From Streptomyces tsukubensis (GTDB lineage: Bacteria > Actinomycetota > Actinomycetes > Streptomycetales > Streptomycetaceae), in contig NZ_CP045178.1 in assembly GCF_009296025.1 (NCBI RefSeq), positions 6,138,001 to 6,202,000 of the forward strand: a stretch of 64,000 bases of DNA, in the 5' to 3' direction. The notes beneath the pieces were generated by a model. That model had not been told where the DNA came from and made no database searches. It saw nothing but the letters and a program-made list of their open reading frames with translations. The position numbers were made by a program, and so were the translations under genes. Positions 24,673 to 40,473 of this stretch are shown piece after piece (position 1 is the stretch's first letter; every line of letters starts with the position of its first letter).

Positions 24673-26025
24673 CTACGAACCCGAGTCCTGCTGCGGGGCG
24701 ACCGGGAACGATGCCTTGTCGCGGTCCGTGCCGTCGGTGATCCACCATGTGTCCCCGCCGAAGAGGGCCAGTTCCGCGCGGCCGTCGCCGTCCCAGTCAC
24801 CGACGTCGAAGAGCATGCCGTCGATGGGGCCGTCGTCACCCGGCTCGGAGCGCTTGGTGGAGCGCCAGGGCTTCGACCCGAGCCCGTGCTCGGAGCCGCC
24901 CCGCAGCACCTCGATCCGCGCGTCCCCGGCCTCCTTCTTCTTGGTGAGCTGTACGGCCAGGTCGTCGCAGCCGTCGCCGTTGAAGTCCCCGACGGCGAGG
25001 GTGGTGCCGAACCCCTCCTTGAAGTCGCCGCCTTCCATGGTGACCCACTTCCCGGGCTCCTTGCCGTAGCGGACGCTGACCTGGCCGCGCCGGTGGGGCG
25101 TGTCCTCCTCGTCGTAGTCGTGGACGAAGCTTCGGCCCACGGCGATGTCCTGCCGCCCGTCGCCGTCGAAGTCGCCGAAGACGACGTTCTCGCCCTCCGG
25201 CAGCCGCTCGGGTTCCTTGCTCAGGCCGCCTGCGGTACGGGCACCGCCGGTGAACAGCAGGGGCGGGTCGTACGGGGAGTCGTAGAGGGCGAGATCGGTG
25301 GCGCGGTCGTCGTTCGCGTCCCCGGCGACCAGCAGGGGTGTCGCGTTCTCGCGGACCGGGCTGTGGATACGCACGGTCTTGGCGGGGGCGCCGGAGCGCT
25401 TGAACGGCCCCTTGAGCAGGACCAGTTCGTCGTTGTGTTCGTCGTTCATCGAGGATCTGAAGGCCGCGAGGTCGGTGTGGCCGTCCCCGTCGAAGTCACC
25501 GGCGACCGGCGCGGTGCTGTATCCGCCGTCCGGCAGTGGCACACGCCCGTGCGGCCCATCGGCCCGCGGACCCTTGGGGCCTCCCCACGCGACCCGGGCG
25601 TCGCCGCTGGCGATGAGGTCGGAGTGGCCGTCCTCATCCAGGTCGGCGACGGTGGGCTGCCACGGTTCGTCGCCGTTCTGGACGTCGTCAGGCACCCCGA
25701 GATCGTCGTGGCTGAGGACGGTCGTGCGGCCGTGGGCAGGGCCGTGCTCGGAGCCGGGCAGGATCAGCACGTCGAAGTCGTCGGAGTCGGAGAACTCGTG
25801 CACCAGATCGACGAAGCCGTCCCCGTCGAGGTCGGGGGTGGCCGGCCTGTCCTTGCGTACCGAATCGACCGGTCGGCAGGGGCTGTTGGCCACCGAGACC
25901 GTACCGTCGGACGGGCGTAGGACGAAGACCGCCGCCACCACCGCCACCACTACGAGGAAGGCCGTCACGGCGTGCCACACACGCACGTGGCGGAAGAAGG
26001 GGCCGCCTGTTGTCGGGAAGTGCAT
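24673..26025 (-). CDS. Membrane-anchored FG-GAP/VCBS repeat protein
   Basis: A 450-residue protein with one N-terminal membrane anchor (VTAFLVVVAVVAAVFVL, about residues 20-36) and an extracellular beta-propeller. I count seven calcium-type FG-GAP repeats: DLDGDGFVDLV, DLDEDGHSDLI, DFDGDGHTDLAAF, DANDDRATDLALY, DFDGDGRQDIAVG, DFNGDGCDDLAVQL and DWDGDGRAELALF. Such propellers bind ligands or proteins at the surface. No enzyme motif is present. It is the first gene before a terminator on the same strand as the S33 peptidase, but they are 230 bases apart. Function unknown. Confidence 0.88.
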   Translation of the reverse strand: MHFPTTGGPFFRHVRVWHAVTAFLVVVAVVAAVFVLRPSDGTVSVANSPCRPVDSVRKDRPATPDLDGDGFVDLVHEFSDSDDFDVLILPGSEHGPAHGRTTVLSHDDLGVPDDVQNGDEPWQPTVADLDEDGHSDLIASGDARVAWGGPKGPRADGPHGRVPLPDGGYSTAPVAGDFDGDGHTDLAAFRSSMNDEHNDELVLLKGPFKRSGAPAKTVRIHSPVRENATPLLVAGDANDDRATDLALYDSPYDPPLLFTGGARTAGGLSKEPERLPEGENVVFGDFDGDGRQDIAVGRSFVHDYDEEDTPHRRGQVSVRYGKEPGKWVTMEGGDFKEGFGTTLAVGDFNGDGCDDLAVQLTKKKEAGDARIEVLRGGSEHGLGSKPWRSTKRSEPGDDGPIDGMLFDVGDWDGDGRAELALFGGDTWWITDGTDRDKASFPVAPQQDSGS

Positions 26026-26473: not shown

Positions 26474-26683
26474 TCAGCCGGGCAACTGGCTGTGATTGAT
26501 GGCCGAGACGAAGGAGGACCAGGCCGGGGCCTGAAATACGAGGGCGGGACCGTGCGGGTTCTTGCTGTCCCGTACGGGGATCACGGTGATGAAGTCGTCG
26601 GAGACCTCGACGCACGCGCCACCGTCCGAGTTGCTGTAAGAGCTCTTGCGCCACGTCACGGCGCTCAGTTCGATGGATCGCAC
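26474..26683 (-). CDS. DUF397 protein, coupled to the XRE regulator
   Basis: A 69-residue protein nearly parallel to its neighbour: VTWRKSSYSNSDGGACVEVSDD then IPVRDSKNPHGPALVF and WSSFVSAI. GTG 26683 has GGAGGA 6 bases upstream and overlaps the end of the XRE gene (stop at 26665-26667) by 19 bases, so they are translationally coupled. This is the standard XRE-DUF397 arrangement. The two DUF397 copies in tandem suggest a local duplication. Confidence 0.9.
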   Translation of the reverse strand: MRSIELSAVTWRKSSYSNSDGGACVEVSDDFITVIPVRDSKNPHGPALVFQAPAWSSFVSAINHSQLPG

Positions 26684-27507
26684 GGCACTTCCTCCAACAT
26701 GCGCAGGACCAACTTCCGTGACTCGGCCGGAGACAGCGCCAGGTCACGCACTACATCGTAAACACCTTGCAGCTTCTCAACCGCCACGCAATCTTCGATC
26801 AGATCACCACGGTGTGCATTCTCCGTGTACGCCACCGTACGTCCCAGCGGTAGACGCAGGAACCACACGTCGGTGCTGTCCAGCCCATAAGGACCGGCAC
26901 TGAACGGCAGCACCTGAATCGCCACATTGCGGCGACCCGCCATCTCAACCAAGTGTTCCAACTGGCCTTGCCACTCGGCTGTGTCCAACAGTGCCGTCCG
27001 TAAGACAGCCTCGGAGAGGACTGTCCGGAAGCGGGGCGCGTCTTCCCCCTCCAACAGCTCCCGCCGCCCCATCCGCGCCTCGACCTGCTGTTCAAGTTCC
27101 TTCCCCTTGAGGCCGCCCGCCGCCAGGACCTCCCGTGCGTACCCCGGTGTCTGCAACAGTCCCGGCAGGACACTGACCGCGAAGTGCCACAGGCTCACCG
27201 CCTCCGCCTCCAGCGACATGTACCGCCGGTACCGCTCGCGGAACTGCGTATGGTCCCCGGCCGCGACCTCCCACAGCGCCAGCAGCAGCCCGGGCGTCCC
27301 GTAGTACGTGTCGAGGGCCTGGACGACTTCCGGGCTGCCGAGAGTCTCGCCCTTCTCCATCTTGCCGAACAGTGACCAGTCCCAGCCCAGCCGTTCGCCG
27401 AGGGCTCGCAGGCTCAGGCCGCTCGCGGCCCGCAGGACGCGTAGTTCCTCGGCGAACCGTTGGCGTGGGTCCTGGCTGCGGCCGGTGATGGCGCGTCGTT
27501 GCGGCAT
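26665..27507 (-). CDS. XRE-family regulator with DUF5753-type domain
   Basis: A 280-residue protein. The helix-turn-helix is at about residues 15-70 (FAEELRVLRAASGLSLRALG, then WDWSLFGKMEKGETLGSPE). The C-terminal DUF5753-like part includes SVLPGLLQTPGYAREVL and WFLRLPLGRTVAYTENAHRG. These Streptomyces regulators act with DUF397 proteins and control development or antibiotic genes in the few studied cases (WhiJ-type). ATG 27507 has GGAGGGAG upstream; 36 extra codons in the open frame are excluded. Divergent small genes at 27711 and 27965 are likely targets or partners. Confidence 0.9.
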   Translation of the reverse strand: MPQRRAITGRSQDPRQRFAEELRVLRAASGLSLRALGERLGWDWSLFGKMEKGETLGSPEVVQALDTYYGTPGLLLALWEVAAGDHTQFRERYRRYMSLEAEAVSLWHFAVSVLPGLLQTPGYAREVLAAGGLKGKELEQQVEARMGRRELLEGEDAPRFRTVLSEAVLRTALLDTAEWQGQLEHLVEMAGRRNVAIQVLPFSAGPYGLDSTDVWFLRLPLGRTVAYTENAHRGDLIEDCVAVEKLQGVYDVVRDLALSPAESRKLVLRMLEEVPCDPSN

Positions 27508-27710
27508 ACCGCTCCCTCCGGGGCGTTCGTGTGAGCGAGGTCGAATGTGGAACGTGTGGCACCACTTGTGCCTGGCGGGGCGGTACCTTCCCGCCCACGA
27601 TCCGGTCGGCCACATCCGCGCGCATTCTCGTGACGACCGGACTACGCAGCGTAGTTCACGCAGTGCAGGCCGGTCATGGAATCAACGGAACCGCCACCGA
27701 CGAGGACTCT

Positions 27711-28289: not shown

Positions 28290-28339
28290 AAAACGAGAAC
28301 TGTTCCCGAGCTACTGTGACTCAAGAACGGCTCCGGCGG

Positions 28340-30448
28340 TCAGCTGGACGGAGTCGGAGGGCGGGATCCGCACAGCGCGTCCTTGAGGAACGCGACCTGG
28401 AGAAGGAGCATGTTCCGCTGTACCTCGTGGTCAGCCACCATGTGGGCAGCGCCGGGGAGCGGCAGAAACGTGTGCGGTCGGCCCGCCCTCAGCAGGGCTT
28501 CCGATAGCCGGAAAGTGTGGGCGCTGACCACGTTGTCGTCGGCCGTCCCATGGATCAGCATCAACGGCCTGGTCAGGTGGGCAGCGTCCTTGATCAACGA
28601 CGAGCGGACGTAATTGTCGGGCTCGTCGGCCGGGTGACCGAGGTGGCGTTCCCGCCAATGGGTGTCGTAGAGGGTCTGGTCGGTGACGGGGGCCCCCGCG
28701 ACAGCTGCGTGGAACACGTCTGGCCTGCGCAGCACCGCCAACGCCGCGAGGAATCCGCCGAAAGACCACCCCCGGATGCCCACCCTGGTCAGATCGAGGC
28801 CGCCGACCGCCGCAGCTGTAGCCTGCAACCCGTCGACCTGGTCCTGGAGAACTGGCGTGGCAATGTCCCCTCTGATGGTCCGCTCCCACCCAGGACCGCG
28901 TCCCGGGGTGCCGCGCCCGTCGATGATGACAACTGCGAAACCTTGCTCCGCCAGCCACTGCGGGAGGAGGTACCCGTCCTGCTCCTCGGTGACCCGCTGT
29001 AGGTAGGGACCGGCGTACGGGTCCATGAGCACCGGGAGGAGCTGATCGGTGTCGGATCCGGCGGGCCGCACGACAGCGACGCGCAACTTCCTTTGCCCCA
29101 CGCGCAGTAGCTGGACGTTCGGCTTCAGCAATGGGCGTTCAGCGAGGCTGCGCACCCGGCTCGTAGCGCGGGAGCGGTCGCGGACAGTAACTTCCCACCC
29201 GTCCCGGTCAGGGGCGCGGCCGTAGGACACCACCGTTCCCCCACCGACCCGGCCGTTCCAGACACCCGCCGCACGGGTCTCCTGACGCGCACCGTACGAG
29301 GGGTCCCAGCTCCATAGGCCGGTGCGTGTCGGTTCCCGCGAGGCGCGAACGAACACCGTCTCACCATCGGTACCGACTACCTCCCGCACCTGGAGGCCGG
29401 GCGGGGTGACGGCCTCACCGTCGACCAGCAGCCGACGGGAGTCCTCCTGGTCGGTCACGGTGACGAGCCGTCCCGAGGCCGTCACCGCCGGGACGCCCTT
29501 GACCACCGTCACCCAGCAGGGGTCGGTCTCCTCGCGTACCACGCGCGTCCTGCCGGTGGCCGGCGCCACGGCCAGCACACGCATCCTGCGTTGGGTGCGG
29601 TCCTGGACGAGGACGAGGGGTTCGTCCAGACTCCAGTTGACCTCCACGACGTACTCGAACGCCTTGCGGTCCCATTCCACCGCTACGGCGTCTTCGTCTG
29701 GGCTGACCAGCCACAAGGAGACGTCCGCGTTCGCTGTACCGGCCGCAGGATAAGCCACCTGCCTGGGAGGGGTGGCGGGACGGGCGGGGTCGCTGAGGTA
29801 CCAGCGCTCGACCGAGGTGGTGTCCACCCGGGCGACCATCAGCCTCCGACTGTCCGGCGACCACCAAAACCCCCTCAGGCGTTCCATCGACTCGGCGGCC
29901 ACGTGCTCCGCCACGCCGTAGGTGACATTCTCGCCCTCCGGCGCGACCACGAGGCTGTCACCGCGACCGTCGACGCCGACCGTACGGAGCGATCCGGCGT
30001 GGACGTAGGCGATGCGGGTGCCGTCCGGGGAAGGGCGTGGGTCAAACGCGGGCCGGGCGGTTTCCAGCGTGCGCACCTGACGGGTACCGAGCCGGGCCGT
30101 GCAAACTCTGCCGTCCAAGCAGAACACGGCGAGGTCCACGACCGCGTCGGTGGCGTAAGCGGTGATGCCGTGGGCGCGTTGCCGGGTGCGCTCGCGGAGC
30201 CAGGCGTCCGCAGATGACGCTCCCCGGTCCTCTGCCGGGGGCAGGATGTCGTCGGGGTCCACGACGAGCTGCTCCTCCCCGGTGCCCGCAGACAGTGTCC
30301 ATAGGCAGGAGAGGGGGTCGCCACCGCTGCGCGTGCGCAGGAACACCACCCGTTCGCCGTCGGGCGAGACGGTGAAGGAGGACGGGACCCCGAGCTGGAA
30401 CCGGTGGGTGCGGAGGTACTGGTCGAGGAAGGCGTCGGTGGCACTCAT
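28340..30448 (-). CDS. S9-family peptidase (prolyl oligopeptidase / DPP-IV-like)
   Basis: A 702-residue cytoplasmic-looking serine peptidase with no signal peptide. The N-terminal ~430 residues form a beta-propeller (repeated SPDG-type motifs: VSPDGERVVFL, PSPDGTRIAYV, WSPDSRRLMVA). The C-terminal hydrolase has Ser562 in RGWSFGGFLA, Asp near 638 in HGTADDNV and His near 669 in GAAHMV. It is the last gene of the seven-gene operon and overlaps the methyltransferase gene by 4 bases (ATGA). In a peptide pathway it could remove a leader or N-terminal dipeptide, or degrade the product. The substrate is unknown. Confidence 0.92.
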   Translation of the reverse strand: MSATDAFLDQYLRTHRFQLGVPSSFTVSPDGERVVFLRTRSGGDPLSCLWTLSAGTGEEQLVVDPDDILPPAEDRGASSADAWLRERTRQRAHGITAYATDAVVDLAVFCLDGRVCTARLGTRQVRTLETARPAFDPRPSPDGTRIAYVHAGSLRTVGVDGRGDSLVVAPEGENVTYGVAEHVAAESMERLRGFWWSPDSRRLMVARVDTTSVERWYLSDPARPATPPRQVAYPAAGTANADVSLWLVSPDEDAVAVEWDRKAFEYVVEVNWSLDEPLVLVQDRTQRRMRVLAVAPATGRTRVVREETDPCWVTVVKGVPAVTASGRLVTVTDQEDSRRLLVDGEAVTPPGLQVREVVGTDGETVFVRASREPTRTGLWSWDPSYGARQETRAAGVWNGRVGGGTVVSYGRAPDRDGWEVTVRDRSRATSRVRSLAERPLLKPNVQLLRVGQRKLRVAVVRPAGSDTDQLLPVLMDPYAGPYLQRVTEEQDGYLLPQWLAEQGFAVVIIDGRGTPGRGPGWERTIRGDIATPVLQDQVDGLQATAAAVGGLDLTRVGIRGWSFGGFLAALAVLRRPDVFHAAVAGAPVTDQTLYDTHWRERHLGHPADEPDNYVRSSLIKDAAHLTRPLMLIHGTADDNVVSAHTFRLSEALLRAGRPHTFLPLPGAAHMVADHEVQRNMLLLQVAFLKDALCGSRPPTPSS

Positions 30449-31089
30449 CGTGCGCCCTCAGGCAGCCGGGACCACAGGAAATAATAGTCTTCGAAACCGG
30501 GACCGCACCCGAAGGAACCCACGACTTCCAGACCGGCGTCCTCGATCATCTGCATGAAGTCCTCCGGGGCGGAGAACCGGTGGTTCTCCTGGATGAGGAT
30601 CGACCCGCCCGGGTTCAGGAAGCCAGGAGCAGCCGCGTAGAAGTCGCGGTGGATGGACCAGTCCGTGTCCTTCCAGATCAGCGGGGAGTGGCTGTGTTGG
30701 TACTCCGAGGCGGGTGCGGCAGCGTTGACGTGAGGTGGGTTCCCGACGATCAGATCCCAACGGAGGTCGGCGGGAACCTGTGCGAAGGAGTCGGACAGGT
30801 GGAAACGGACCTGATTCTCCAGACCGTTGGCCTTCACCGTGCGGTCCACCACGGCCTGGGAAGCAGGGTTGAGGTCGCCGAGGTCGAGGGACGTGCAGAG
30901 TCCCGCTGCGAGGAGTGAGAAGCCGATGAAGCCCGGCCCGGCACACCATTCGAAGGCACTCCCCACATGCCCGAGGTGACGTTCGACGAAGGGCGCGTAC
31001 GCGCGGCCGAAGGTATTTCCACCGCCATCCAGTTCCTCGGTGTAGGAAACCCCCACGGGACCGTACTGGGCCTGTAGATGACGAGGCAC
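30445..31089 (-). CDS. SAM-dependent methyltransferase
   Basis: A 214-residue class I methyltransferase. Motif I is EWCAGPGFIGFSLL (about residues 47-60), an acidic motif follows in DLGDLNP, and motif IV reads VGNPPH (117-120), similar to the NPPY motif of N-methyltransferases of the PrmC/HemK type. This suggests N-methylation, perhaps of a peptide amide, guanidine or amine. GTG 31089 is chosen over the upstream frame because GGAGGAGG lies 5 bases before it. It sits between the oxygenase and the S9 peptidase in the operon. Confidence 0.85.
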   Translation of the reverse strand: MPRHLQAQYGPVGVSYTEELDGGGNTFGRAYAPFVERHLGHVGSAFEWCAGPGFIGFSLLAAGLCTSLDLGDLNPASQAVVDRTVKANGLENQVRFHLSDSFAQVPADLRWDLIVGNPPHVNAAAPASEYQHSHSPLIWKDTDWSIHRDFYAAAPGFLNPGGSILIQENHRFSAPEDFMQMIEDAGLEVVGSFGCGPGFEDYYFLWSRLPEGAR

Positions 31090-31133
31090 GCGTCCTCCTC
31101 CTGTCCGTAACAACTGAAAGGGTCGACGAGGGA

Positions 31134-32159
31134 TCAGTAGATGACGCGCTCGTGGGGCGCCGGACGGGCGTCCCGTGACTTGCGCAAGTCCCTGGCGACG
31201 TTGATGCGCTTGAGCCAGCGGTCCTTCCCGTCGTACCTCGCCCGGAAGGGGCGGCGCCCGTGTATCGCCTTGAAGTTGTCGATGAAGATGACCTGGCCCG
31301 GCTCCAGGATGGCCTCCTTCATGTGCGTCTCCACCTTCTCGGAGAAGAGCTCCAGGGCCTGGCGGGCTTCGTCGTCCTCGATCGGTGCGATGTAGTACGG
31401 ATGCACCCGTAGGTACGGGTCCGAAGGGTCGCCGAAGAGGACGGGGACCGGCTCGGGCCGGCTCAGCATGCGGCTGATGCGCGCGTAACTGCGCTCCCGC
31501 AGTTCCGCGGTGGGGTCGCCGGCCCGTGGCTCGGCTCGGTTCTCGGAGCGGTGGGCGTCGTCGGGCAGCAGCGGGAAGTGCGCCCCGGCGAGCACCTCAC
31601 GGGTGCGTGGGTCCAACGACAGGTCGTCCACCCCCACGTATGTCGTCTCGGCGGCGTCGGGATTGCGCAGGCACATCAACCCGACGTAGTCGGCGCGGTA
31701 GGGATGGAAGGCGTCCTCGGTGTGCCACTCCAGAGGGGTGCTGCTCCCGGTGCCCAGCTGGCCCACCTCGTGGCCCTTGATGGGTATCACGTCGTGCATG
31801 ATCCGCCCGTCCTGTTGGGTCGCCCAGGCGATGGGGTCGCCGAGGAGCTGCCCGCAGAGCAGGAAGAACATTTCCTCCCGCAGGGTGGGAGAGTGGACGG
31901 GCCGGTCCTTCCAGTGGTCCGGTGTCGGACCGATCGCTCCGTCGTCGACGGGGATACCTTCGACGACGCAGGCCACAGCGGGCTCCTTGAGCCGGAACGC
32001 GCTGAGCGCGGCCCGTAGCCCCTTGGGGAGGTCGTGCGCGTGGAGGGCCGCATCGTCCAGGAACTCCTGCGACTCGACCGAGGGGTAGCGCTCCGCCAGC
32101 TCCGCCACCAGAGCGCGGCACTGTGCAGCTTCTTGTGGGGTCAGGGTGATGCGGTACAT
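31134..32159 (-). CDS. Fe(II)/2-oxoglutarate amino-acid hydroxylase (VioC/AsnO-like)
   Basis: A 341-residue protein of the clavaminate-synthase-like oxygenase group that hydroxylates free amino acids such as Arg, Asn or Lys. The metal ligands His146 and Glu148 lie in PLEWHTEDAFHPYRADYVG, the distal His300 in FIDNFKAIHGRRPF and the 2-oxoglutarate Arg314 in GKDRWLKR, which is 14 residues after the distal His as expected. The HTE (rather than HTD) ligand set matches the VioC/AsnO/lysine-hydroxylase clade. ATG 32159 has GAAGGA upstream. It likely supplies a hydroxylated building block for the cluster product. Confidence 0.9.
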   Translation of the reverse strand: MYRITLTPQEAAQCRALVAELAERYPSVESQEFLDDAALHAHDLPKGLRAALSAFRLKEPAVACVVEGIPVDDGAIGPTPDHWKDRPVHSPTLREEMFFLLCGQLLGDPIAWATQQDGRIMHDVIPIKGHEVGQLGTGSSTPLEWHTEDAFHPYRADYVGLMCLRNPDAAETTYVGVDDLSLDPRTREVLAGAHFPLLPDDAHRSENRAEPRAGDPTAELRERSYARISRMLSRPEPVPVLFGDPSDPYLRVHPYYIAPIEDDEARQALELFSEKVETHMKEAILEPGQVIFIDNFKAIHGRRPFRARYDGKDRWLKRINVARDLRKSRDARPAPHERVIY

Positions 32160-32219
32160 CAGGGCGTCCTTCGGAACAGGTGTCGTGCGGTACGGGGACT
32201 GTCCGGGGTTGTTGGCAGT

Positions 32220-33551
32220 TCAGCGATGGGCGACCGCCACCGTCGGGAGGGCGCCGTGCCCGTGGATACTGACGACCCCATGCCGTCCGGGCGGCAGGTA
32301 GCGGACCATGCAGCCGCCCGGCCGATCGTCGAAGATGTAAGGGCTGAAGACGGGGAACACGTCGGCCTCGTAGGTGCTTTTGCCGTCGTCGGCGGCGAAC
32401 TCCATCGGGTACGGCACCGGGTCCACGTATGCCTGCACGATGTGATCCTCGTTCGCCGCCGCGCGAGCCACCGTCCGCCGCCAGAGTTCGCGGTCGCAGT
32501 GGCGCCCGACGAGGACATCCCGCGCCTTCATCCCGATCGCCGGCTTCAGGACGAACTCCTCGGGGTGTTCGACCAGCAGTTCTGGAAGGTTGTGGGTGGA
32601 GCCCCGCCACTTGGTGGGCCGCTCGCCCACTACCCGTGTCCAGGGCAGGTACCGCTCGACCGTCTCGCGGTCGTGGTCCGACATCCAGGGACGTCCTTCA
32701 GACACCCAACCGAGGACCTTCTTGTTGGAGATGAGATAGGCGGTCTGTGTCGCGATCAACGTGCAGCCGGCGTCGAGCGCGGTACGGACGGGCGCCAGGT
32801 CGATCCCGTGGCCGCGCCACTCGGGGACGGTGAAGTGACGCAGCCCGACCCCGTAGCGCGGGCGACCCGGCAGCCCCAGCCCCCGCAACAGGTCCTCGGG
32901 CTCGAAGAACTCGGCCTTCAGCCCATGGCTGGTGAGCGAGTCGACCTGAACGTCGTAGTAACGGTTGGTCCTACTGCCGTTGAGGTCCCGGGCAGTCCCC
33001 ACGATGGCGACGGCCGGGTCGACCCCGAGTTTCCTGACCGCACGGAGGAAGATCTCGTCGCGCACGGCCAGCGGGTCGGGCCCGAGGAACGGCGCTCGGT
33101 CGGCGCCGCCGTAGACCGCCGTCCACGCCGCGGAGTTCAACGAGGTATCGACTACCCCGCCGATGCCCGCACCGATGTTGAATTCGACAAACTTCGGGCC
33201 GGTGGCGTCGACCATCATGTCGGGCCGTGCGATGCACGTGGCGAAGTCCTCCTCCACCGTTCCCTCCAGGAAGAGCGGGTACATCCGCTCGTCGGCGCCG
33301 AGCGCAGCGACACGGCCCGCCGCAGTGGGGGCCGACGCCAGCAGGGTCCTGCGGAGGAGCCCAAGGAGCCTCGCGGCGGCGTCGAACATCTCCCGGTAGG
33401 ACGGCTGGGGAAGCACCACCGGACGCACCGATGCCGGGGACATGGGGAAGGCGATGTCGTCCATCGCCCCGCTGAGCGACTCGATCAGGGCAGGAACCGG
33501 GAGTCGGGAACCGTGGGGGATGTTGGTCGTGCCGTACCAGTGGGTGCTCAC
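32220..33551 (-). CDS. ATP-grasp ligase
   Basis: A 443-residue protein with ATP-grasp features: KFVEFNIGAGIGG (about 120-132) and FVLKPAIGMKARDVLVGR (333-350), followed by HIVQAYVDPVPYP (370-382). Such enzymes join an amine to a carboxylate through an acyl phosphate and often make peptide bonds in small peptide pathways. I did not recognise a closer family, so which two substrates are joined is open. GTG 33551 overlaps the stop of the GNAT gene (GTGA). A 60-base gap separates it from the oxygenase gene. Confidence 0.8.
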   Translation of the reverse strand: MSTHWYGTTNIPHGSRLPVPALIESLSGAMDDIAFPMSPASVRPVVLPQPSYREMFDAAARLLGLLRRTLLASAPTAAGRVAALGADERMYPLFLEGTVEEDFATCIARPDMMVDATGPKFVEFNIGAGIGGVVDTSLNSAAWTAVYGGADRAPFLGPDPLAVRDEIFLRAVRKLGVDPAVAIVGTARDLNGSRTNRYYDVQVDSLTSHGLKAEFFEPEDLLRGLGLPGRPRYGVGLRHFTVPEWRGHGIDLAPVRTALDAGCTLIATQTAYLISNKKVLGWVSEGRPWMSDHDRETVERYLPWTRVVGERPTKWRGSTHNLPELLVEHPEEFVLKPAIGMKARDVLVGRHCDRELWRRTVARAAANEDHIVQAYVDPVPYPMEFAADDGKSTYEADVFPVFSPYIFDDRPGGCMVRYLPPGRHGVVSIHGHGALPTVAVAHR

Positions 33552-34732
33552 GGGTGCGTCCTCCTGTCGAGGTTCTGGGGTACCGATGCGAGGAACGAGT
33601 CGAGGTCCACGTGGTCGACCCGTGCGACGCCGGGGGACTTCGCGGAGTAGTCGCGGCGGGCAGGTCGGTCGGAGTCGTGGAAGTAGACCGCTCGTAGGGA
33701 CCCGTCGACGTCCTCGGCCAATACGGGATTGGCGACCAGGAAGTCGCGGACCTCGGGGGTGTCACGACGCACCTGTAGCCACAGGCGTTTGTTGCCGAAG
33801 TGGTTCGGAGGCAGGATCACGCGGGTCCCGAACCGGCGCTTCCACTGGTAGGTGCCCTTGCTGAGGAAGGGCTCCGTGCCCTGGAAGTCGAGGAACCGCA
33901 CCCCGTTGTCCGCCGCCCATCCGATGAGGAAGTGGTAGATGGCCTTGAAGGCACCGTTGTCGTAATGCTCCTCGGACCCGTCCAGCACACCGAGCAGACG
34001 GAGGGTCAACACCTGGGTCGCGGGGTCCCAGTGGCACAGGGCGCCCGCGATGTGCTCGCCGTTCTGCGAGAGGCTGAACATGCGGCCCGAGCGGAAGAGG
34101 CACTCGTAGGAGACCTCCTTGGTTTCCGTCCTCTCGCGTGTGCCGTGGCGATTCCGCATGGTGGGGCGGTATAGGCGGTCGTAGAAGAAGTCGAACCACG
34201 CGGGGTCACGTTCGACGGACCAGCTCCAGTCCCGCAGCTTCATGTCGTGGTTGAACTGGGAGCGTTCTCGCTTGGAGATCTTCCGACGCGCCGTGTCGGA
34301 TCCCCCCTGGGTATCGAGCACGAAGTGGATGCGCATGGGGATGATCAAGGAGGCCGACTCGGTCATCTGCCGGGCGCGCGCCGCACTGGTGCCCACGATG
34401 GTGACGTCAGCGTCCGGGAGTCGGGACACTGCCCCCAGCGCCTTCCCGCTGATCCGTGCGGATGTGCGCCGCGCAGCCTTCCCCGAGCCCGTCTCGCGGC
34501 GCAGTTCGGTGAACTCCAGCGTGTACGCGAGCCCTTCGGCCAATCCGGCGTAGGAGACGGACATGCCGTTCAGGTCCGAGCGGACGGCGGGGAACACGGC
34601 GCTGTCACGGGTGTCCACCGCGGTGCGCCACCTGGTCACCGCAGGGTGGCCACTGTTGCGCCAGTGGTACCCGGCGTGCATGCGCAGACGACGGTACAGC
34701 GGTGAACGTGAGGGCGGGGTTCCAGCAGACAA
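33548..34732 (-). CDS. GNAT/FemAB-like transferase, possible tRNA-dependent peptide ligase
   Basis: A 394-residue protein. The second half has the BioF2/FemAB-type GNAT layout: WFDFFYDRLYRPTMRNRHG, FSLSQNGEHIAGALCHW, FKAIYHFLIGWAADNGVRFL and TEPFLSKGTYQWKRRFGTRV. Proteins of this fold either acetylate or use aminoacyl-tRNA to add an amino acid to a peptide (Fem family; DhpH-type in dehydrophos). Start TTG 34732 fits GAGGA 8 bases upstream; an internal ATG start is possible. It lies between the LanB-like and ATP-grasp genes, which supports a peptide-forming role, but this is an inference. Confidence 0.7.
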   Translation of the reverse strand: MSAGTPPSRSPLYRRLRMHAGYHWRNSGHPAVTRWRTAVDTRDSAVFPAVRSDLNGMSVSYAGLAEGLAYTLEFTELRRETGSGKAARRTSARISGKALGAVSRLPDADVTIVGTSAARARQMTESASLIIPMRIHFVLDTQGGSDTARRKISKRERSQFNHDMKLRDWSWSVERDPAWFDFFYDRLYRPTMRNRHGTRERTETKEVSYECLFRSGRMFSLSQNGEHIAGALCHWDPATQVLTLRLLGVLDGSEEHYDNGAFKAIYHFLIGWAADNGVRFLDFQGTEPFLSKGTYQWKRRFGTRVILPPNHFGNKRLWLQVRRDTPEVRDFLVANPVLAEDVDGSLRAVYFHDSDRPARRDYSAKSPGVARVDHVDLDSFLASVPQNLDRRTHP

Positions 34733-34759
34733 GGGTTCGTTCCTCGATGGTCGGACGAG

Positions 34760-37330
34760 TCAGCGGGTCGGGGCGGAGAACGCGGCGTAGCGCAGTTCTG
34801 ACGAGTAGTGGCCGCGTTGGTCCGACACCCAGAGGTGCTCGGGTGCGGGCAGCATCTCGGACAGTTCGACGGGCTCCGCCGACCGGCCGGCGAGCCGGGT
34901 GAGCTGCCGGACCAGTAGTGGACTGTCGAGGTCGCAGTACACGGGCTTGGTCTCCCCAGCGACCTTGGCGTACAGGTGTCGGCACAGACCCCTGTCCTCC
35001 CGCACCTGCTGCACCTTCAAGAAGGCGTCGCGGCGGTGCCGTGCGGAAAGATCCGCGGCCGGCACTCGCCAGGACTCTCGCTGGAGCACCACGGGGCCCA
35101 TCGTGACCCGGGGCAGGTGCGGGTGGCGGCGTCCGGGGAGCAGCCTGCCGCCCTGGTGCCGGGGGAAACCGAAGGGCACGAACGGGTTCCGCCGCACTCC
35201 CAGCCAGGCATAGGGGAGTGCGGCCATCCGCAGGAAGCGCCCGCTCTCCGGATGGCGCAGGCGGAGGGCTCCGCCTGACCACACCACCCTGAGGTCGGCC
35301 AACGCTGCCACCCGGTCGCGGGGCAGCGGGGAGCGCCCGCTCGCCTCTATCTCGAAGGTCTCCAGGGGCACCCGGATATAGGACTTGTTCCGGTGCGCGA
35401 GGGTGACGCACGCGAGGTCCTCGTCCGCCGCCATGAGCCCCCGGTACCCGTCGAGGACATGGGTGGGGAAGGCGGGGAACCGCTCGCTCAACATGGGGCC
35501 GAACAGTCCATGGCTGAGCGACTCCTCGTTGGAGTGCAGCTCACTGAGGACCAAGTGGAAGTCGCCGGCCGCCAGATCTTCGGGCGACCGTGCCCCGATC
35601 ATGAGGTCAGGGTTGCACAGCGCAGGCAGCAGTTCCCCGGCCGAGGACACGAGCTCCCGCACCGTGGCTGTGTCCACTTGGATCCGGGGGTCGTCATATG
35701 TGCCCCCGGACAGCAGTGTGTCCTCCACCCGGTCCAGGAAGGCGGTTTCGGCGGCGTCCATCTCCGCGTAGCGGCTCTCCAACTGCGCGGAGTCCTCGAT
35801 GAAACCGGTGGTGAACTCGTGGAGGCCGACCTCCGACCGCCCGGGGAAGTGTTTGGCGTACCACTCACCGAGCAGCCTCGACTCGGTGGCGAACCGTCGT
35901 CGTGGCCCCGCCATGACCAGGTCGTAGGCGAGGGGGAGGCCGTCAGCGAGGAGATCGGTCAACGGCTTCCCGATGGACAGGTCGGCGTAGCGACCTGAAC
36001 AGTCCTCGTGGAGGACGGACCGGTCGCCGTAGAAGGTCCCCCTGCCACGTTCGGCTGACACACCCGTGTACGCCTCGAAGCCGGCCTTGAGCGAGTCGAG
36101 CGTTGCCCGGCGCTGGACCGTCGTGCTCCCCGGCGCTCCGAAGTCGGCAAGGTGACACCGGGCCTCCTGTAGCAGCCCACGCCAGGCGACACCACCGGGG
36201 TCGCCCGTGTGAAGGGCGAGTTCGGGTATCGGATCCGGCGTGCCGTAGGGAATCTCCGGTCCCACGATGATGGCGCCCAGTTCCTCCAGGCTGTGGAGGG
36301 CATCCAGCAGGGCCTGCGGCAGGAGACCGCCGTCCTGGTATGTGGGGTCCACTTGGTGCGCGAGGTGGGCTGTCGTCCTCTCACCGTCGCACAGGACGAA
36401 GAGGGCGTGGGCGAACTCGTCCAGTTCCGTCGGCGGGTGCTCACGGGTCGCGCTCCCGACGTCGGAGACTTTCGAGGAGTAGTCGAAGGAGAGGACCCGC
36501 AGAGTGCGACCCGACACGGACGCGCCAGGGGCCCGGCGAGGGCGGCACTGCCTGAGCACCTCGGGGTCGTCACGCATGGCGGTGGCGATGGCCTCGCCCG
36601 CCCAGCGTGACAGCAGGGGGTGGCGGCTCAAGGGGGTCTGCCTCGCGTCGACCCCAGGGATGCCGGGTGCGAAGGACCCCAGGGTGAAGGGCCCGAGGTG
36701 GCCGGTCGTGTCGTTCTTGGCACAGGCACGCTGTAGGTGGCGGACCAGGGTGTCGACGCGTGGCTGGTCGTCCTTGTGCCAGCGCCGGTCCGGCCGCCGG
36801 GTCCCGGCGATCCAGCGTGAGAGGACCGGTTCGGAGCTCTCGTTGGACACCAGCAGGGCGTCCCGCAGGTCCTCGTGCTGTTGGAAGAGACGGACCACTT
36901 GGTCGGACGCTTGGAGTTCCTCCTGGGGGAAGACACGGAGAAACTCCTCCTCGGCTCGGGCCTCGTCGTGGAGGAGCGTGGCGAAACGCTGGACGACCGC
37001 CTCGACCTCGGCGGACTCGATCGCGGAGAGAATGTGCGGCGGTGGCAGTCTGCGCTTGCGCACCGCTCGCAGTGCGGCACCGTCCGCGCGGGTCCTGGCG
37101 GCGGCGAGCACACCCTCGGAGTGCGAGTCGGCGACGGCCTGGTCGAGTCTGCCGCGCGTGGTGACCAGGTGCCGGGCCGCCGAGGTCGCGGTCTTCGACG
37201 CGAGGTCAGCCAGTAGTTCGAACGGGAACCCGGACATGCGCAGCACGAACGGCGACAGCGTGTTCCAACCGTCACCAGGGACACGGTCGGGGACAGCGCC
37301 GTTCGTCAACGCGGGCACGGAGGTGGTCAT
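34760..37330 (-). CDS. LanB-like (lantibiotic-dehydratase N-domain) protein
   Basis: An 856-residue protein. The opening FVLRMSGFPFELLADLASKT (28-47) matches the start of LanB-type glutamylation domains. RHLQRACAKNDTTGHLGPF (198-215) resembles the CAKND-SFFGP block I recall from stand-alone LanB-like proteins, including peptide aminoacyl-tRNA ligases. I see no SpaB-type C-terminal elimination domain, and no other gene in the cluster encodes one. LanB-type enzymes use Glu-tRNA to glutamylate Ser/Thr, while PEARLs add an amino acid to a peptide C-terminus. No precursor peptide is found in the operon. ATG 37330 has AAAGG upstream. Confidence 0.8.
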   Translation of the reverse strand: MTTSVPALTNGAVPDRVPGDGWNTLSPFVLRMSGFPFELLADLASKTATSAARHLVTTRGRLDQAVADSHSEGVLAAARTRADGAALRAVRKRRLPPPHILSAIESAEVEAVVQRFATLLHDEARAEEEFLRVFPQEELQASDQVVRLFQQHEDLRDALLVSNESSEPVLSRWIAGTRRPDRRWHKDDQPRVDTLVRHLQRACAKNDTTGHLGPFTLGSFAPGIPGVDARQTPLSRHPLLSRWAGEAIATAMRDDPEVLRQCRPRRAPGASVSGRTLRVLSFDYSSKVSDVGSATREHPPTELDEFAHALFVLCDGERTTAHLAHQVDPTYQDGGLLPQALLDALHSLEELGAIIVGPEIPYGTPDPIPELALHTGDPGGVAWRGLLQEARCHLADFGAPGSTTVQRRATLDSLKAGFEAYTGVSAERGRGTFYGDRSVLHEDCSGRYADLSIGKPLTDLLADGLPLAYDLVMAGPRRRFATESRLLGEWYAKHFPGRSEVGLHEFTTGFIEDSAQLESRYAEMDAAETAFLDRVEDTLLSGGTYDDPRIQVDTATVRELVSSAGELLPALCNPDLMIGARSPEDLAAGDFHLVLSELHSNEESLSHGLFGPMLSERFPAFPTHVLDGYRGLMAADEDLACVTLAHRNKSYIRVPLETFEIEASGRSPLPRDRVAALADLRVVWSGGALRLRHPESGRFLRMAALPYAWLGVRRNPFVPFGFPRHQGGRLLPGRRHPHLPRVTMGPVVLQRESWRVPAADLSARHRRDAFLKVQQVREDRGLCRHLYAKVAGETKPVYCDLDSPLLVRQLTRLAGRSAEPVELSEMLPAPEHLWVSDQRGHYSSELRYAAFSAPTR

Positions 37331-37379
37331 GGTGAGCCTTTCAGGAGCAGTGTGACGCGGGGACGTGAGACGTCACCGG

Positions 37380-38756
37380 TCATGCCTGAGCGGCCTTGAA
37401 CACCACGTCCTTGAGCATGTCGCCGTTCTCCACCAGGTGCAGAGCCGTGTGCGGCAGAACTGAGTAGTCATGCACGCTGTAGCAGCCCGAACCGTGCACG
37501 AGGACGTCCTCCTCGTCGATCAGGCCCCGGTCGACGGCGTTGAGGAGCCCGGTCATCGCCATGACCAGCGACCATTCCCGTAGCTCCCGCGGGTCAGCGG
37601 GAAGTTCCAACCTGGCCTTGCGCAACAGGGCCCTGACCTGCGCGTAACGGGAAAGGCACTCGTGCAGCGAGACCACGATGCCACCACCGCCGTGCGAGTG
37701 GATCAACTCGTTCATCCGCGCGGAGGTGGGCGGGTTGCGGGTGTAGAAAGTAGTGTCCAGAGTCTCGCTCGTGTCGGCGGTCAGGTACGGGAACCGGGGG
37801 TCGGTCCGCTGCTCGAACAGACCGGTCATGTCGTCGTAGCGGTACGCGGGCACCAGGTCCCGGCTCGTGCCACCGTGGTAGAGGCTCAGCACCATGTCAG
37901 GCGCGCCCAAGTGCTGCACCAGGAAGTATCGAGGTCGCGGCGTGTGCTCGCGGGTTGACTCGTCGAGCAGGGCACGGCCCTGCGCGTGGCCGAGCAGACC
38001 GTACGCGCTGGACACCGCATGGACGTGCAGCCTCGGTGCGACGGGCGGGAAGAGTTCGGATTCCACGAATGCACGGACGACATCCGCAGCCATGTAGTTG
38101 TTCAGGTCGAGTGTGTACCAGAGGTTGACGCCCGCCGCGTCCTTCAGGGCGCTCCCGTACGCGTCCACGACGTGGCGGGCCAGGGCCTTCACACCAGCTG
38201 GGTCCGTCCCGGGGTACACCGCCACGGGGTTGCGGGCCTGAAGTTCGGGGTCGCGGTGGAGTTCGGAGTCCCAGAGCTTGGACGTCGAGCCCTGCGGTAT
38301 GACGACGGAGACGCTCAACTGCTCCGGGGTGACGAGGTCCAGGCGAAGGGCCCGCAGCACCGCGTCACGCATGGCGGTGGCCTTGTTGGCCGACGAAGGC
38401 GTAAGGATCATGACGCGCTCGCCGGTCTCCTGGATGAAGCGGACCGCGCGGGCGACCGTCAGCAGGGAAGCGAAGGTCTTCGTAGTGCGGGTGCCGGGGT
38501 TGAGTGCCAGATTCAGCAGGGCGAGGCGCTTGCCCCCGTATTCGCCCATGGAGGCGTGGTGCAGACCGGACGCGGAGAAGAACTCGCGGATTCCCGACGT
38601 CATCCCGGGGAGCTCGGGGCCCGGGTTGAACTCCGGCGAGCGACCGGCGTCTTCACCGAGGAGCAACTGCAACGTGGGGCCGATGCGTGAGTAGTAGCGC
38701 TCGATCGCGTTGGTGAGTTCGACCTCGTCCATGGGTACCTGCGTTGTTACCTGCAC
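37380..38756 (-). CDS. PLP-type protein, possible DUF6002 family
   Basis: A 458-residue protein. ALNPGTRTTKTFASLLTVAR (Lys93) and MILTPSSANKATAMRDAV look like the PLP-lysine and the S-x-N-K phosphate region of fold-type II enzymes such as threonine synthase. I recall a similar sequence family as DUF6002, but I cannot confirm it. It could make or modify an unusual amino acid precursor. GTG 38756 has GGGGGAG 8 bases upstream; two upstream starts in frame (38786 and 38780) are alternatives. It is the first gene of the seven-gene operon, next to the divergent control region. Confidence 0.65.
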   Translation of the reverse strand: MQVTTQVPMDEVELTNAIERYYSRIGPTLQLLLGEDAGRSPEFNPGPELPGMTSGIREFFSASGLHHASMGEYGGKRLALLNLALNPGTRTTKTFASLLTVARAVRFIQETGERVMILTPSSANKATAMRDAVLRALRLDLVTPEQLSVSVVIPQGSTSKLWDSELHRDPELQARNPVAVYPGTDPAGVKALARHVVDAYGSALKDAAGVNLWYTLDLNNYMAADVVRAFVESELFPPVAPRLHVHAVSSAYGLLGHAQGRALLDESTREHTPRPRYFLVQHLGAPDMVLSLYHGGTSRDLVPAYRYDDMTGLFEQRTDPRFPYLTADTSETLDTTFYTRNPPTSARMNELIHSHGGGGIVVSLHECLSRYAQVRALLRKARLELPADPRELREWSLVMAMTGLLNAVDRGLIDEEDVLVHGSGCYSVHDYSVLPHTALHLVENGDMLKDVVFKAAQA

Positions 38757-39198
38757 TTGCCGCTCCCCCGTTCGATGCATGATCACTTGGGTGACGTAAT
38801 TCGATCAGATGGCCGATACGCCCACAAAGGCTTGACGAACTGCAACGTGTTTGAATCGGCCAGGAGTGTTCCGGGTGAAACCGCAGAAACCTGTGATCTG
38901 CTACCTTGCTCCGCTCTGATCCCCGGCCCCTTCCGGCGGGGCGTACAGCTGCTGTGCGGCGGGAATGGGCCCGGTCGTGCAGCCTTTCGGTACCTCCCCG
39001 TCGACGGGCACGGCCGACCGATTGCCCGGGTCGGCGCGGTGTTCGACCGGACATGGCTGAGAATCGTCGGCCGCCGGGGCCGTTGCTGTGGGCTCGTCAT
39101 CGAGAAGGAGAGGAACACCGCACAGGTGGTCCCCGCCGCACGACGGGGCCGGCTCGGTCTGCTTGACAAGTTAACCAAGGACGTGGCTACAAACTTGC
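38757..39198. promoter_or_regulatory. Divergent control region of the accessory cluster
   Basis: A 442-base space between the minus-strand operon and the plus-strand MFS gene. It is visibly richer in A and T near 38780-38880 and 39160-39195. ORFs in it (38906-39166 plus and 38783-39226 minus) look non-coding and do not resemble a RiPP precursor. It must contain at least two promoters. No regulator gene is present in the cluster. Confidence 0.6.
39163..39193 (+). promoter_or_regulatory. Promoter for the MFS exporter, possibly leaderless
   Basis: TTGACA (39163-39168) is followed 19 bases later by TACAAA (39188-39193). The predicted start of transcription falls at about the ATG of the MFS gene (39199), and no ribosome site lies near that ATG. 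This fits a leaderless transcript. Confidence 0.5.
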
Positions 39199-40473
39199 AT
39201 GACATCATCAACACCGGGTGCAGCAAGTCAAGTCGAGGAACCGGGCACCGAACCGCTGCGCCGGATCCGCGACTTCCGCCTGTTCTGGCTCTCCCGGGTC
39301 CTGTCCGGTCTGGGATCAGCAGTCACCTACGTGGCTATGCCGATCCTGGTCTACAAGGAAACGGGATCGCCACTGCTGGTCTCCCTGGTCGCCGCGGGGG
39401 AGGCGATGCCTTACGTCTTCTTCGGGCTGCTGGCCGGAGCGCTCGCCGACCGCATGGACCGACGGCGCCTCATGGTGACCTCCGACATCGCCAACGGTCT
39501 GTGCCTGGCGAGCATCCCCCTGGCTTCGGCACTTCACTGTCTGACCGCCGTGCACATCGTGGCCGCAGCCTTCTTGTCCTCGACCCTCTACATCTTCTTC
39601 GACGCGGCCGGGTACGGGGTAGTGCCGACGGTGGTGGGGAGGGACCGGCTGCCGCAGGCCAACAGCGCCATCTGGGGGGCGGAGACGGCGGTGCGGATCG
39701 TCGGTACGGCGATGGCCGGCCTCCTCATCGCCGCTATGCGTCCCACCGGGGTGCTGGCGCTGGATGCCGTCACGTTCCTCGCCTCGGCTCTCCTCATCCG
39801 CGCGCTCACGAGGGCAGCGCCTGAGCCGGAGGTCCGGGCCGACTCCCGACCCCGCCTGGTCGAGTCGATCAAGGAGGGGCTTCACTTCCTCTGGAACCAG
39901 CCCGAGTTGAGGCTCATGACGATCTCGGGATGTCTACAGTCCTTCGCCGGCGGCGCCTTCATCGGCCAGCTCGTGATCTTCGCGGACCGAGGCCTGGGAA
40001 TCAGGGAGCCCGATCCACGTGTGGGCCTGTTGTTCACCGCCTGGAGCGTCGGTGGGGTCCTGGGGGCCGTGGCCCTCCCGCGCCTCCTCAAGAGGATCGG
40101 CGCCCTCCAGATCATGCGGGTCGCACTGCCCGCCAGCATGATCCTTGGCCTGCTCACCGCACTTACATCCGACTGGCGCCTGGCGCTCCCCGCCATCGCG
40201 GCATGGGGTACGGCGTACCTGATGGTTATCGTCAACACGGTGACGTACGCCCAGACTGTGACCCCCGCGTCCCTACAGAGCAGGGTCAACACCACGCGCC
40301 GCATGCTTTCCTCGGGGGTGGGCGCCCCGGCAGGCGCGATGACGGCGGGACTGATGACTGCGTCGTTCAACGTCCGTGCCGGGCTCCTGCTGGCGGTGGC
40401 GGCCATCGCCGTCGCCGCCGTTGCGGCCTGGTGCTTGCGCCCTTCGTCGGCGGCGGTCGGCGCGCAGGGCTGA
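39199..40473 (+). CDS. MFS exporter (MFS_3 / EntS-like)
   Basis: A 424-residue, 12-helix major-facilitator protein of the MFS_3 group (enterobactin-exporter type). Motif A-like AGALADRMDRRRLM follows the second helix, and the N-terminal RDFRLFWLSRVLSGLGSAVT is typical of the group. It is likely the exporter and resistance protein for the cluster product, being divergent from the biosynthetic operon. The start ATG 39199 agrees with the leaderless promoter. Confidence 0.88.
   Translation: MTSSTPGAASQVEEPGTEPLRRIRDFRLFWLSRVLSGLGSAVTYVAMPILVYKETGSPLLVSLVAAGEAMPYVFFGLLAGALADRMDRRRLMVTSDIANGLCLASIPLASALHCLTAVHIVAAAFLSSTLYIFFDAAGYGVVPTVVGRDRLPQANSAIWGAETAVRIVGTAMAGLLIAAMRPTGVLALDAVTFLASALLIRALTRAAPEPEVRADSRPRLVESIKEGLHFLWNQPELRLMTISGCLQSFAGGAFIGQLVIFADRGLGIREPDPRVGLLFTAWSVGGVLGAVALPRLLKRIGALQIMRVALPASMILGLLTALTSDWRLALPAIAAWGTAYLMVIVNTVTYAQTVTPASLQSRVNTTRRMLSSGVGAPAGAMTAGLMTASFNVRAGLLLAVAAIAVAAVAAWCLRPSSAAVGAQG

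Follow-up and report, generated by a model that had tools for sequence, protein, structure and literature searches.

LanB-like proteins include the peptide-aminoacyl-tRNA ligases (PEARLs), which use ATP and differ from the glutamyl-transferring LanBs in the residues of the ATP site. The accessible portions of two reports place these residues in TglB at Asp542 and Arg803, with Glu801, describe the Asp and Arg as replaced in split LanBs, add a Glu, a conserved His and a tRNA-binding Arg to what PEARLs possess, and have the described PEARLs use a carrier peptide (PMC11117183, PMC11962472). A PEARL-like enzyme of Stackebrandtia nassauensis, SnaE, acts on a short nonribosomal substrate, and the accessible portion of its report gives a cluster with no identified carrier-peptide gene (PMC11212132). 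Here we analyze eight genes at positions 28340-40473 of a 64,000 nt stretch of Streptomyces tsukubensis DNA (NZ_CP045178.1; hereafter the window). They encode a PEARL-like LanB protein, a GNAT/FemAB-like (Fem-like) transferase, a DUF6002 protein, a probable ATP-grasp ligase, a VioC-like hydroxylase, a methyltransferase (MTase), an S9 peptidase and a predicted exporter of the major facilitator superfamily (MFS). We judge it rather probable that these genes work as one unit to make and export a small peptide that is assembled in a tRNA- and ATP-dependent manner without a nonribosomal peptide synthetase (NRPS) and is not a classical ribosomally synthesized and post-translationally modified peptide (RiPP). 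Observed are the gene order, the protein families, the motif residues, two modelled folds (DUF6002 and MTase) and the recurrence of a three-gene core, from which we infer the substrates, the order of steps, the product and the role of the peptidase. The cluster brings enzymes of known kinds together in a new way and is not itself a new kind.

Organization of the cluster

Seven of the genes lie on the minus strand, and the MFS gene (MFS_3; 39199..40473, plus strand) faces away from them across an intergenic region (38787..39198) presumed to hold promoters; the open reading frames (ORFs) bear out the first-pass annotation in this layout and in its two overlapping junctions. The Fem-like and ligase genes meet in a GTGA overlap (CCCGTGAGC) and the MTase and S9 genes in an ATGA overlap (ACGATGAGT), each start overlapping the upstream stop by 4 bases, while the coordinates of the remaining four junctions leave gaps of 20-60 bases. 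Since two junctions overlap and the other gaps are this short, the arrangement fits a single operon, of which the DUF6002 gene is likely the first. A Pfam scan of the eight proteins returned no NRPS or polyketide synthase (PKS) domains, no precursor-like small ORF was seen in the divergent intergenic region, and the cluster gaps, which were the part of the genome searched for one, held no plausible scaffold-peptide ORF. The non-NRPS peptide logic proposed earlier is supported.

A PEARL-like LanB protein, a Fem-like transferase and a probable ligase

The LanB-like protein (856 aa; 34760..37330, minus strand) matched PF04738 only (101 bits). The elimination domain PF14028 was absent from it and from all eight cluster proteins in the Pfam scan, which places it outside the class I lantibiotic dehydratases. 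Its Asp575, Glu597-x-His599 (22 residues on, compare TglB 542/564) and Glu845-x-Arg847 would correspond to the PEARL markers, an equivalence judged from spacing and motif in an alignment that holds no characterised PEARL. The Asp, His and Glu-x-Arg were present in 16/16 LanB-like proteins, window-type and more distant, with Asp at the position of Glu597 in six; three LanB ORFs from the same genome as the window, one of them partial, were aligned with these and lacked the marker residues. Arg201, in the presumed tRNA helix, also occurs in the own-genome LanBs and hence does not discriminate. Judged by its sequence, then, the protein appears PEARL-like, bearing marker residues of ATP-using peptide-aminoacyl-tRNA ligases, and the LanB-like call of the first-pass annotation is upheld by PF04738 and these residues. 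In combining the markers and PF04738 with the lack of an elimination domain it resembles TglB, BhaB, AmmB and SnaE. The cluster is like sna in showing no scaffold gene in the gaps examined, but unlike sna in that its LanB has no NRPS or PKS partner and keeps company with Fem-like, DUF6002 and ligase genes.

Relatives of this LanB were sought in two sets of 395 genomes each, one related to the window genome and the other to G335, with a large overlap as far as shown; beyond places already seen, the G335 search yielded only G154 (30%) past E 1e-30, and none of the 62 matches of a LanB pattern scan for related loci was a relative. The genome itself carries three further PF04738 loci over the family cut-off (G000:C2:4582454, 4207163 and 3397402-3399162). 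Two other clusters (L099 in G148 and L100 in G077) each have two window-type LanB proteins and an MFS gene, with proteins alongside that by eye resemble radical S-adenosylmethionine, arginase-family and PHP enzymes; no DUF6002, Fem-like or ligase match was found within the 20 kb fetched.

The Fem-like protein (394 aa, TTG start; 33548..34732, minus strand) matched FemAB_like best, weakly (E 0.0067; 16.1 bits against a cut-off of 27). Among ten family members, the window's included, Acetyltransf_6 was found in four (best E 5.6e-5), FemAB_like in three and FemAB in two. Lys298 in SKGTYQWKRRFGT is invariant in all ten, and by motif we read it as the likely counterpart of the catalytic lysine of FemX (Lys305) and DhpH-C (Lys329) (PMC12945691). 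This lysine motif substantiates the GNAT/FemAB-like call. The protein thus shares a GNAT/FemAB-type motif, with Lys at the catalytic place, with FemX-type natural-product transferases (DhpH-C, DhpK, VlmA, PacB and BD-12 Orf11), but unlike them it has no above-cut-off Pfam match and no PDB sequence match.

The ligase (443 aa; 32220..33551, minus strand) is probably a circularly permuted ATP-grasp enzyme. It had no Pfam match of its own, and its best NCBIfam match, D-cycloserine synthetase, fell far under the cut-off (E 0.064). Its homologues number 126, and among the 120 listed a few are named "circularly permuted ATP-grasp" at the source; PF14403 matched two of 13 family members (best E 0.021), PF04174 one (0.0053) and PF02655 one (0.026), and PF14403 also matched one of seven more distant homologues (0.010). 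A loop of the VLKPAIGM type is present. Because the Pfam matches are weak, we keep the assignment as probable; ATP-grasp had been stated too strongly in the earlier call. Clusters with PGM1-type peptide ligases, such as those for pheganomycin and ketomemicin, differ from the window cluster, which has no PGM1, but PGM1-type ligase genes do occur in its relatives (L064, L066, L067 and L098). PDB searches found no credible sequence relative of the ligase, the Fem-like protein, the LanB-like protein or the DUF6002 protein.

The DUF6002 protein

The protein of this family (468 aa; 37380..38786, minus strand; PF19465, 694 bits), formerly called simply a PLP-type protein, gave a threonine-synthase-like structure model. 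It is therefore better described as a predicted fold-type-II pyridoxal phosphate (PLP) enzyme, with Lys103 in NPGTRTTKTF as the presumed PLP lysine. CapA2 (9k3c) was among the best fold matches, but identity in the best rows is 14-20% and, in contrast to threonine synthase and other fold-type-II enzymes, DUF6002 forms a Pfam family of its own, with no assigned function. No weight is given to proteins missing from the fold-search results. Our search found no literature on DUF6002.

Elsewhere, DUF6002 genes lie close to a PanD-like aspartate decarboxylase or a thiamine diphosphate (ThDP) protein pair resembling sulfopyruvate/phosphonopyruvate decarboxylase (L135-L138, L140, L144-L146, L148, L152, L056, L058; L036, L101, L142, L144, L145, L147, L150). 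These neighbours, and CapA2 among the top fold matches, suggest that the enzyme product is an acidic, perhaps sulfonate, beta-substituted alanine. Often near DUF6002 stands f43 (L045, L064, L066, L101, L136-L141, L144, L145, L152), a protein of ~330-375 aa whose N-terminus looks Rossmann-like by eye; its L064 copy matched neither Pfam nor NCBIfam, and its L101 copy had no match in NCBIfam. An SbnA/SbnB-like diaminopropionate route for DUF6002 and f43 was dropped, f43 of L064 having no Pfam match where an ornithine cyclodeaminase was expected. A phosphonate route was dropped as well, with no phosphoenolpyruvate mutase among the ORFs looked at and no dedicated search made for one.

Recurrence of a three-gene core

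Related clusters occur in other actinomycetes. A survey of 392 Streptomyces genomes for DUF6002 matched 33, 29 of them near full length. In the neighbourhoods of these 29, genes were counted by tblastn over ~10 kb on either side, as far as the contig extends; for G223, G335 and G114 two fetches were combined. Fem-like genes were present in 19 of the 29, ligase genes in 12, PanD-like genes and f43 in 10 each, ComD/E-like ThDP proteins in six (PanD or ThDP in 14) and LanB-like genes in four; DUF6002, Fem-like and ligase genes stood together as a core in nine. A further contig scan gave 12 loci, nine with the three-gene core, three of these in genomes already counted. In total the core was found in 16 genomes, including the window and, from another family, G431 (L101). 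Of the 16, window included, 14 have an MFS relative in the neighbourhood of the core, and at least four (window, G223, G431 and G375) have LanB-like genes with it, a lower bound in that some core genomes fell outside the two LanB searches. A relative of the window MTase occurs in L056 and L057. VioC-like genes beyond the window turned up in L102 (47%), together with a LanB-like gene, and in L143 (29%), together with DUF6002. Couplers and tailoring enzymes vary among the relatives: RimK-type and PGM1-type ATP-grasp enzymes, stand-alone adenylation-peptidyl carrier proteins, methyltransferases, dioxygenases, luciferase-like proteins and PanD. Three other strains encode LanB-like, ligase-like and MTase-like proteins with 69-73%, 80-83% and 73-80% identity, respectively, and in each strain the longest contigs for the three are of the same size (51483, 65240 and 227720); the LanB and ligase of NPDC060048 are named with consecutive locus numbers. 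Since some of the same neighbours recur across genomes, the grouping appears to be more than a chance neighbourhood.

One long region of G223 (L045 and L098) holds LanB-like, PGM1-type ligase, P450-like, dioxygenase, DUF6002, f43, Fem-like, ligase and O-methyltransferase genes, with four types of amide-forming enzyme among them. In S. sabulosicollis (L067), a ligase, a Fem-like protein, a PGM1-type ligase, an amidinotransferase-like protein (by eye) and a DapF-like gene lie near an MNIO (MbnB/TglH/ChrH) gene and a 729-aa LanB-like protein. Beside the core MFS gene in four genomes (L036, L037/L060, L056 and L058; Pfam run on the L058 copy) is a UvrD-type helicase of ~815 aa, which we take to be HelD-like. 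Such a helicase next to the MFS gene could provide self-protection against an RNA polymerase inhibitor.

Tailoring enzymes and alternative explanations

The hydroxylase (341 aa; 31134..32159, minus strand; TauD domain) keeps the Fe-binding HxE...H of the Fe(II)/2-oxoglutarate enzymes, in line with the 2-oxoglutarate hydroxylase call of the first-pass annotation, and is VioC/GntD-like. Were the product arginine-derived, this enzyme would beta-hydroxylate free L-Arg before ligation and N-methylation, and the profile scores favour such an arginine-type enzyme: NF041363 (GntD) gave 473 bits against a cut-off of 345, TIGR03946 (VioC) narrowly passed its own (424.7 against 418.6), and the VioC chain 2wbq matched at E 1.2e-85. 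By sequence family, Fe ligands and these NCBIfam scores it groups with VioC, CmnC, OrfP, NapI and GntD. However, it differs from VioC, CmnC, OrfP and NapI at the guanidine-binding places, where VioC Asp268 is replaced by His and Asp270 by Tyr. The first of these Asp residues is kept in all 28 aligned Streptomyces relatives (of 29 loci fetched), and the accessible portions of PMC9513391 and PMC10884159 assign guanidine binding to both in VioC and CmnC, or to the first alone, the second position being Tyr in OrfP and Ala in NapI. With both replaced, arginine is probably not the substrate, free Arg is doubtful, and an arginine-derived product is unlikely. The altered pocket could instead accept a neutral ureido or amide side chain, leading to a citrulline-, glutamine- or O-carbamoyl-type product N-methylated on the same carbamoyl group by the MTase (MTS/HemK-like domain; 30445..31113, minus strand). 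This enzyme, identified earlier at the level of its family, can now be described more closely as a relative, by sequence (47% identity) and structure model, of the solved carbamoyl N-methyltransferase Asc-Orf2 (PDB 9l4q). The combination of His/Tyr at the guanidine site with such a relative speaks for this reading, but the MTase substrate is drawn from a single relative and, in contrast to the Asc-Orf2 setting, the eight cluster proteins include no carbamoyltransferase by Pfam; we regard a carbamoyl-type product as rather unlikely. Our literature search found nothing on 9L4Q or on carbamoyl N-methyltransferase. A 214-aa record of the same MTase (P0138) places its likely true start near 31089, the long version beginning with TTG.

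The marker residues of the LanB-like protein and the peptidase in the cluster would also suit a pearlin-type pathway, in which the LanB extends a ribosomal carrier encoded elsewhere by an amino acid, much as the described PEARLs work on theirs, and the S9 enzyme releases the modified amino acid after tailoring. Against this stand the lack of a scaffold-like ORF in the cluster gaps and, in L101, of any called small ORF (at least 50 aa) between the core genes. To our knowledge, described pearlin clusters have no Fem-like and ligase genes, and we hold such a pathway to be quite improbable. That the genes are unrelated and lie together by chance could be argued from the S9 gene, which occurs in none of the fetched neighbourhoods, and from the VioC-like genes, which are seen outside the window only away from the full core. 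The short or overlapping junctions, the recurring core and the co-occurrence of LanB-, ligase- and MTase-like proteins in three other strains, on longest contigs of matching size, make this very improbable indeed. Several observations do weigh against a single unit for a non-NRPS peptide. LanB seems to be accessory to the core, standing beside it in only four of the 16 core clusters; the S9 gene was not seen at any other core; no cluster with orthologues of all seven genes was seen, the closest LanB proteins (P0009-P0011) being known as proteins alone. In addition, the Fem-like protein has weak Pfam matches and no solved relative by sequence, and the ATP-grasp assignment draws on sub-cut-off matches (E 0.005-0.03) in at most five of 20 homologues and on a few source names.

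A proposed assembly pathway

If the eight genes do form a unit for a small non-NRPS peptide, the DUF6002 enzyme would make or alter a non-protein amino acid. The PEARL-like LanB may phosphorylate a free carboxylate with ATP and condense it with aminoacyl-tRNA, a C-terminal extension apparently without a scaffold peptide, and the Fem-like protein may acylate an amine with the amino acid of an aminoacyl-tRNA, an N-terminal extension. The ATP-grasp-like ligase would form an additional amide. The hydroxylase would then oxidise a side chain, probably not that of arginine, and the MTase would methylate a carbamoyl- or amide-type nitrogen. Export would fall to the MFS protein, and the S9 peptidase may trim the product or protect the producer. 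As to the kind of cluster the first-pass annotation was right, and it is partly supported as a whole, having been wrong or vague on the PLP protein, on what the hydroxylase acts on and on how well ATP-grasp is supported.

We can imagine, as a tentative possibility, a more general scheme of scaffold-free, two-way assembly fed by aminoacyl-tRNA, in which PEARL-type enzymes extend a nonribosomal, DUF6002-made starter C-terminally, Fem-type enzymes extend it N-terminally and ATP-grasp ligases serve as interchangeable third couplers. The DUF6002 core would then mark a large family of non-NRPS peptides, built mix-and-match and so far undescribed. Taking a further step, the PanD-like and sulfopyruvate/phosphonopyruvate-decarboxylase-like genes in relatives could mean that DUF6002 makes a cysteate-like sulfonate or another acidic beta-substituted amino acid. 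At the level of the window, PEARL-type and Fem-type tRNA-dependent enzymes and a probable ATP-grasp ligase would be combined in a single small operon that lacks an NRPS and, to the extent observed, a carrier peptide. The searchable core of DUF6002, Fem-like and ligase genes may lead to products missed by searches keyed to NRPS, PKS or precursor genes. A literature search that covered sources other than subscription journals and MIBiG listed no title or abstract dealing with this core. The altered VioC-like pocket and the carbamoyl-type MTase provide concrete, testable substrate hypotheses.

Genomic setting

The last gene of the proposed operon encodes the S9 peptidase (702 aa; 28340..30448, minus strand), a protein of the dipeptidyl peptidase IV/prolyl-oligopeptidase family with DPPIV_N and Peptidase_S9 domains. 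Immediately 3' of it lies a terminator-like hairpin (28302..28328, minus strand), weakly supported given that the scan found seven hairpins against 5.1 (sd 2.2) expected by chance. The cluster is flanked by ilvC-serA on the left and by a proline-dehydrogenase-like gene, rocA, leuB and ilvE on the right. The serA-rocA gap is 20.9 kb in the window and 2.9-11.4 kb in 11 of 12 same-genus genomes that have both genes on one contig (they lie on different contigs in G008); among eight same-order genomes, the two are on different contigs in seven and 247 kb apart in G393. With its longer gap, the window carries extra DNA relative to those 11 relatives, at a spot of variable length. The idea of an insertion relative to S. 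coelicolor is to that extent supported, S. coelicolor itself lying outside the comparison. An adjacent gene (24673-26025) had no close match in the compared genomes (best 39%). The third-position GC of the eight cluster genes is 0.76-0.89, the lowest value belonging to the MTase in its long, TTG-started form; for 12 neighbouring genes it is 0.90-0.96 in ten, 0.895 in one and 0.785 in an XRE-type regulator. Some more distant ORFs of the window fall to 0.82-0.87, as low as the cluster, and the hint of foreign origin is thus weak. The XRE-type regulator (26665-27615), directly downstream of the cluster, has a TTA codon as well as its low third-position GC, and it may be part of the inserted DNA.

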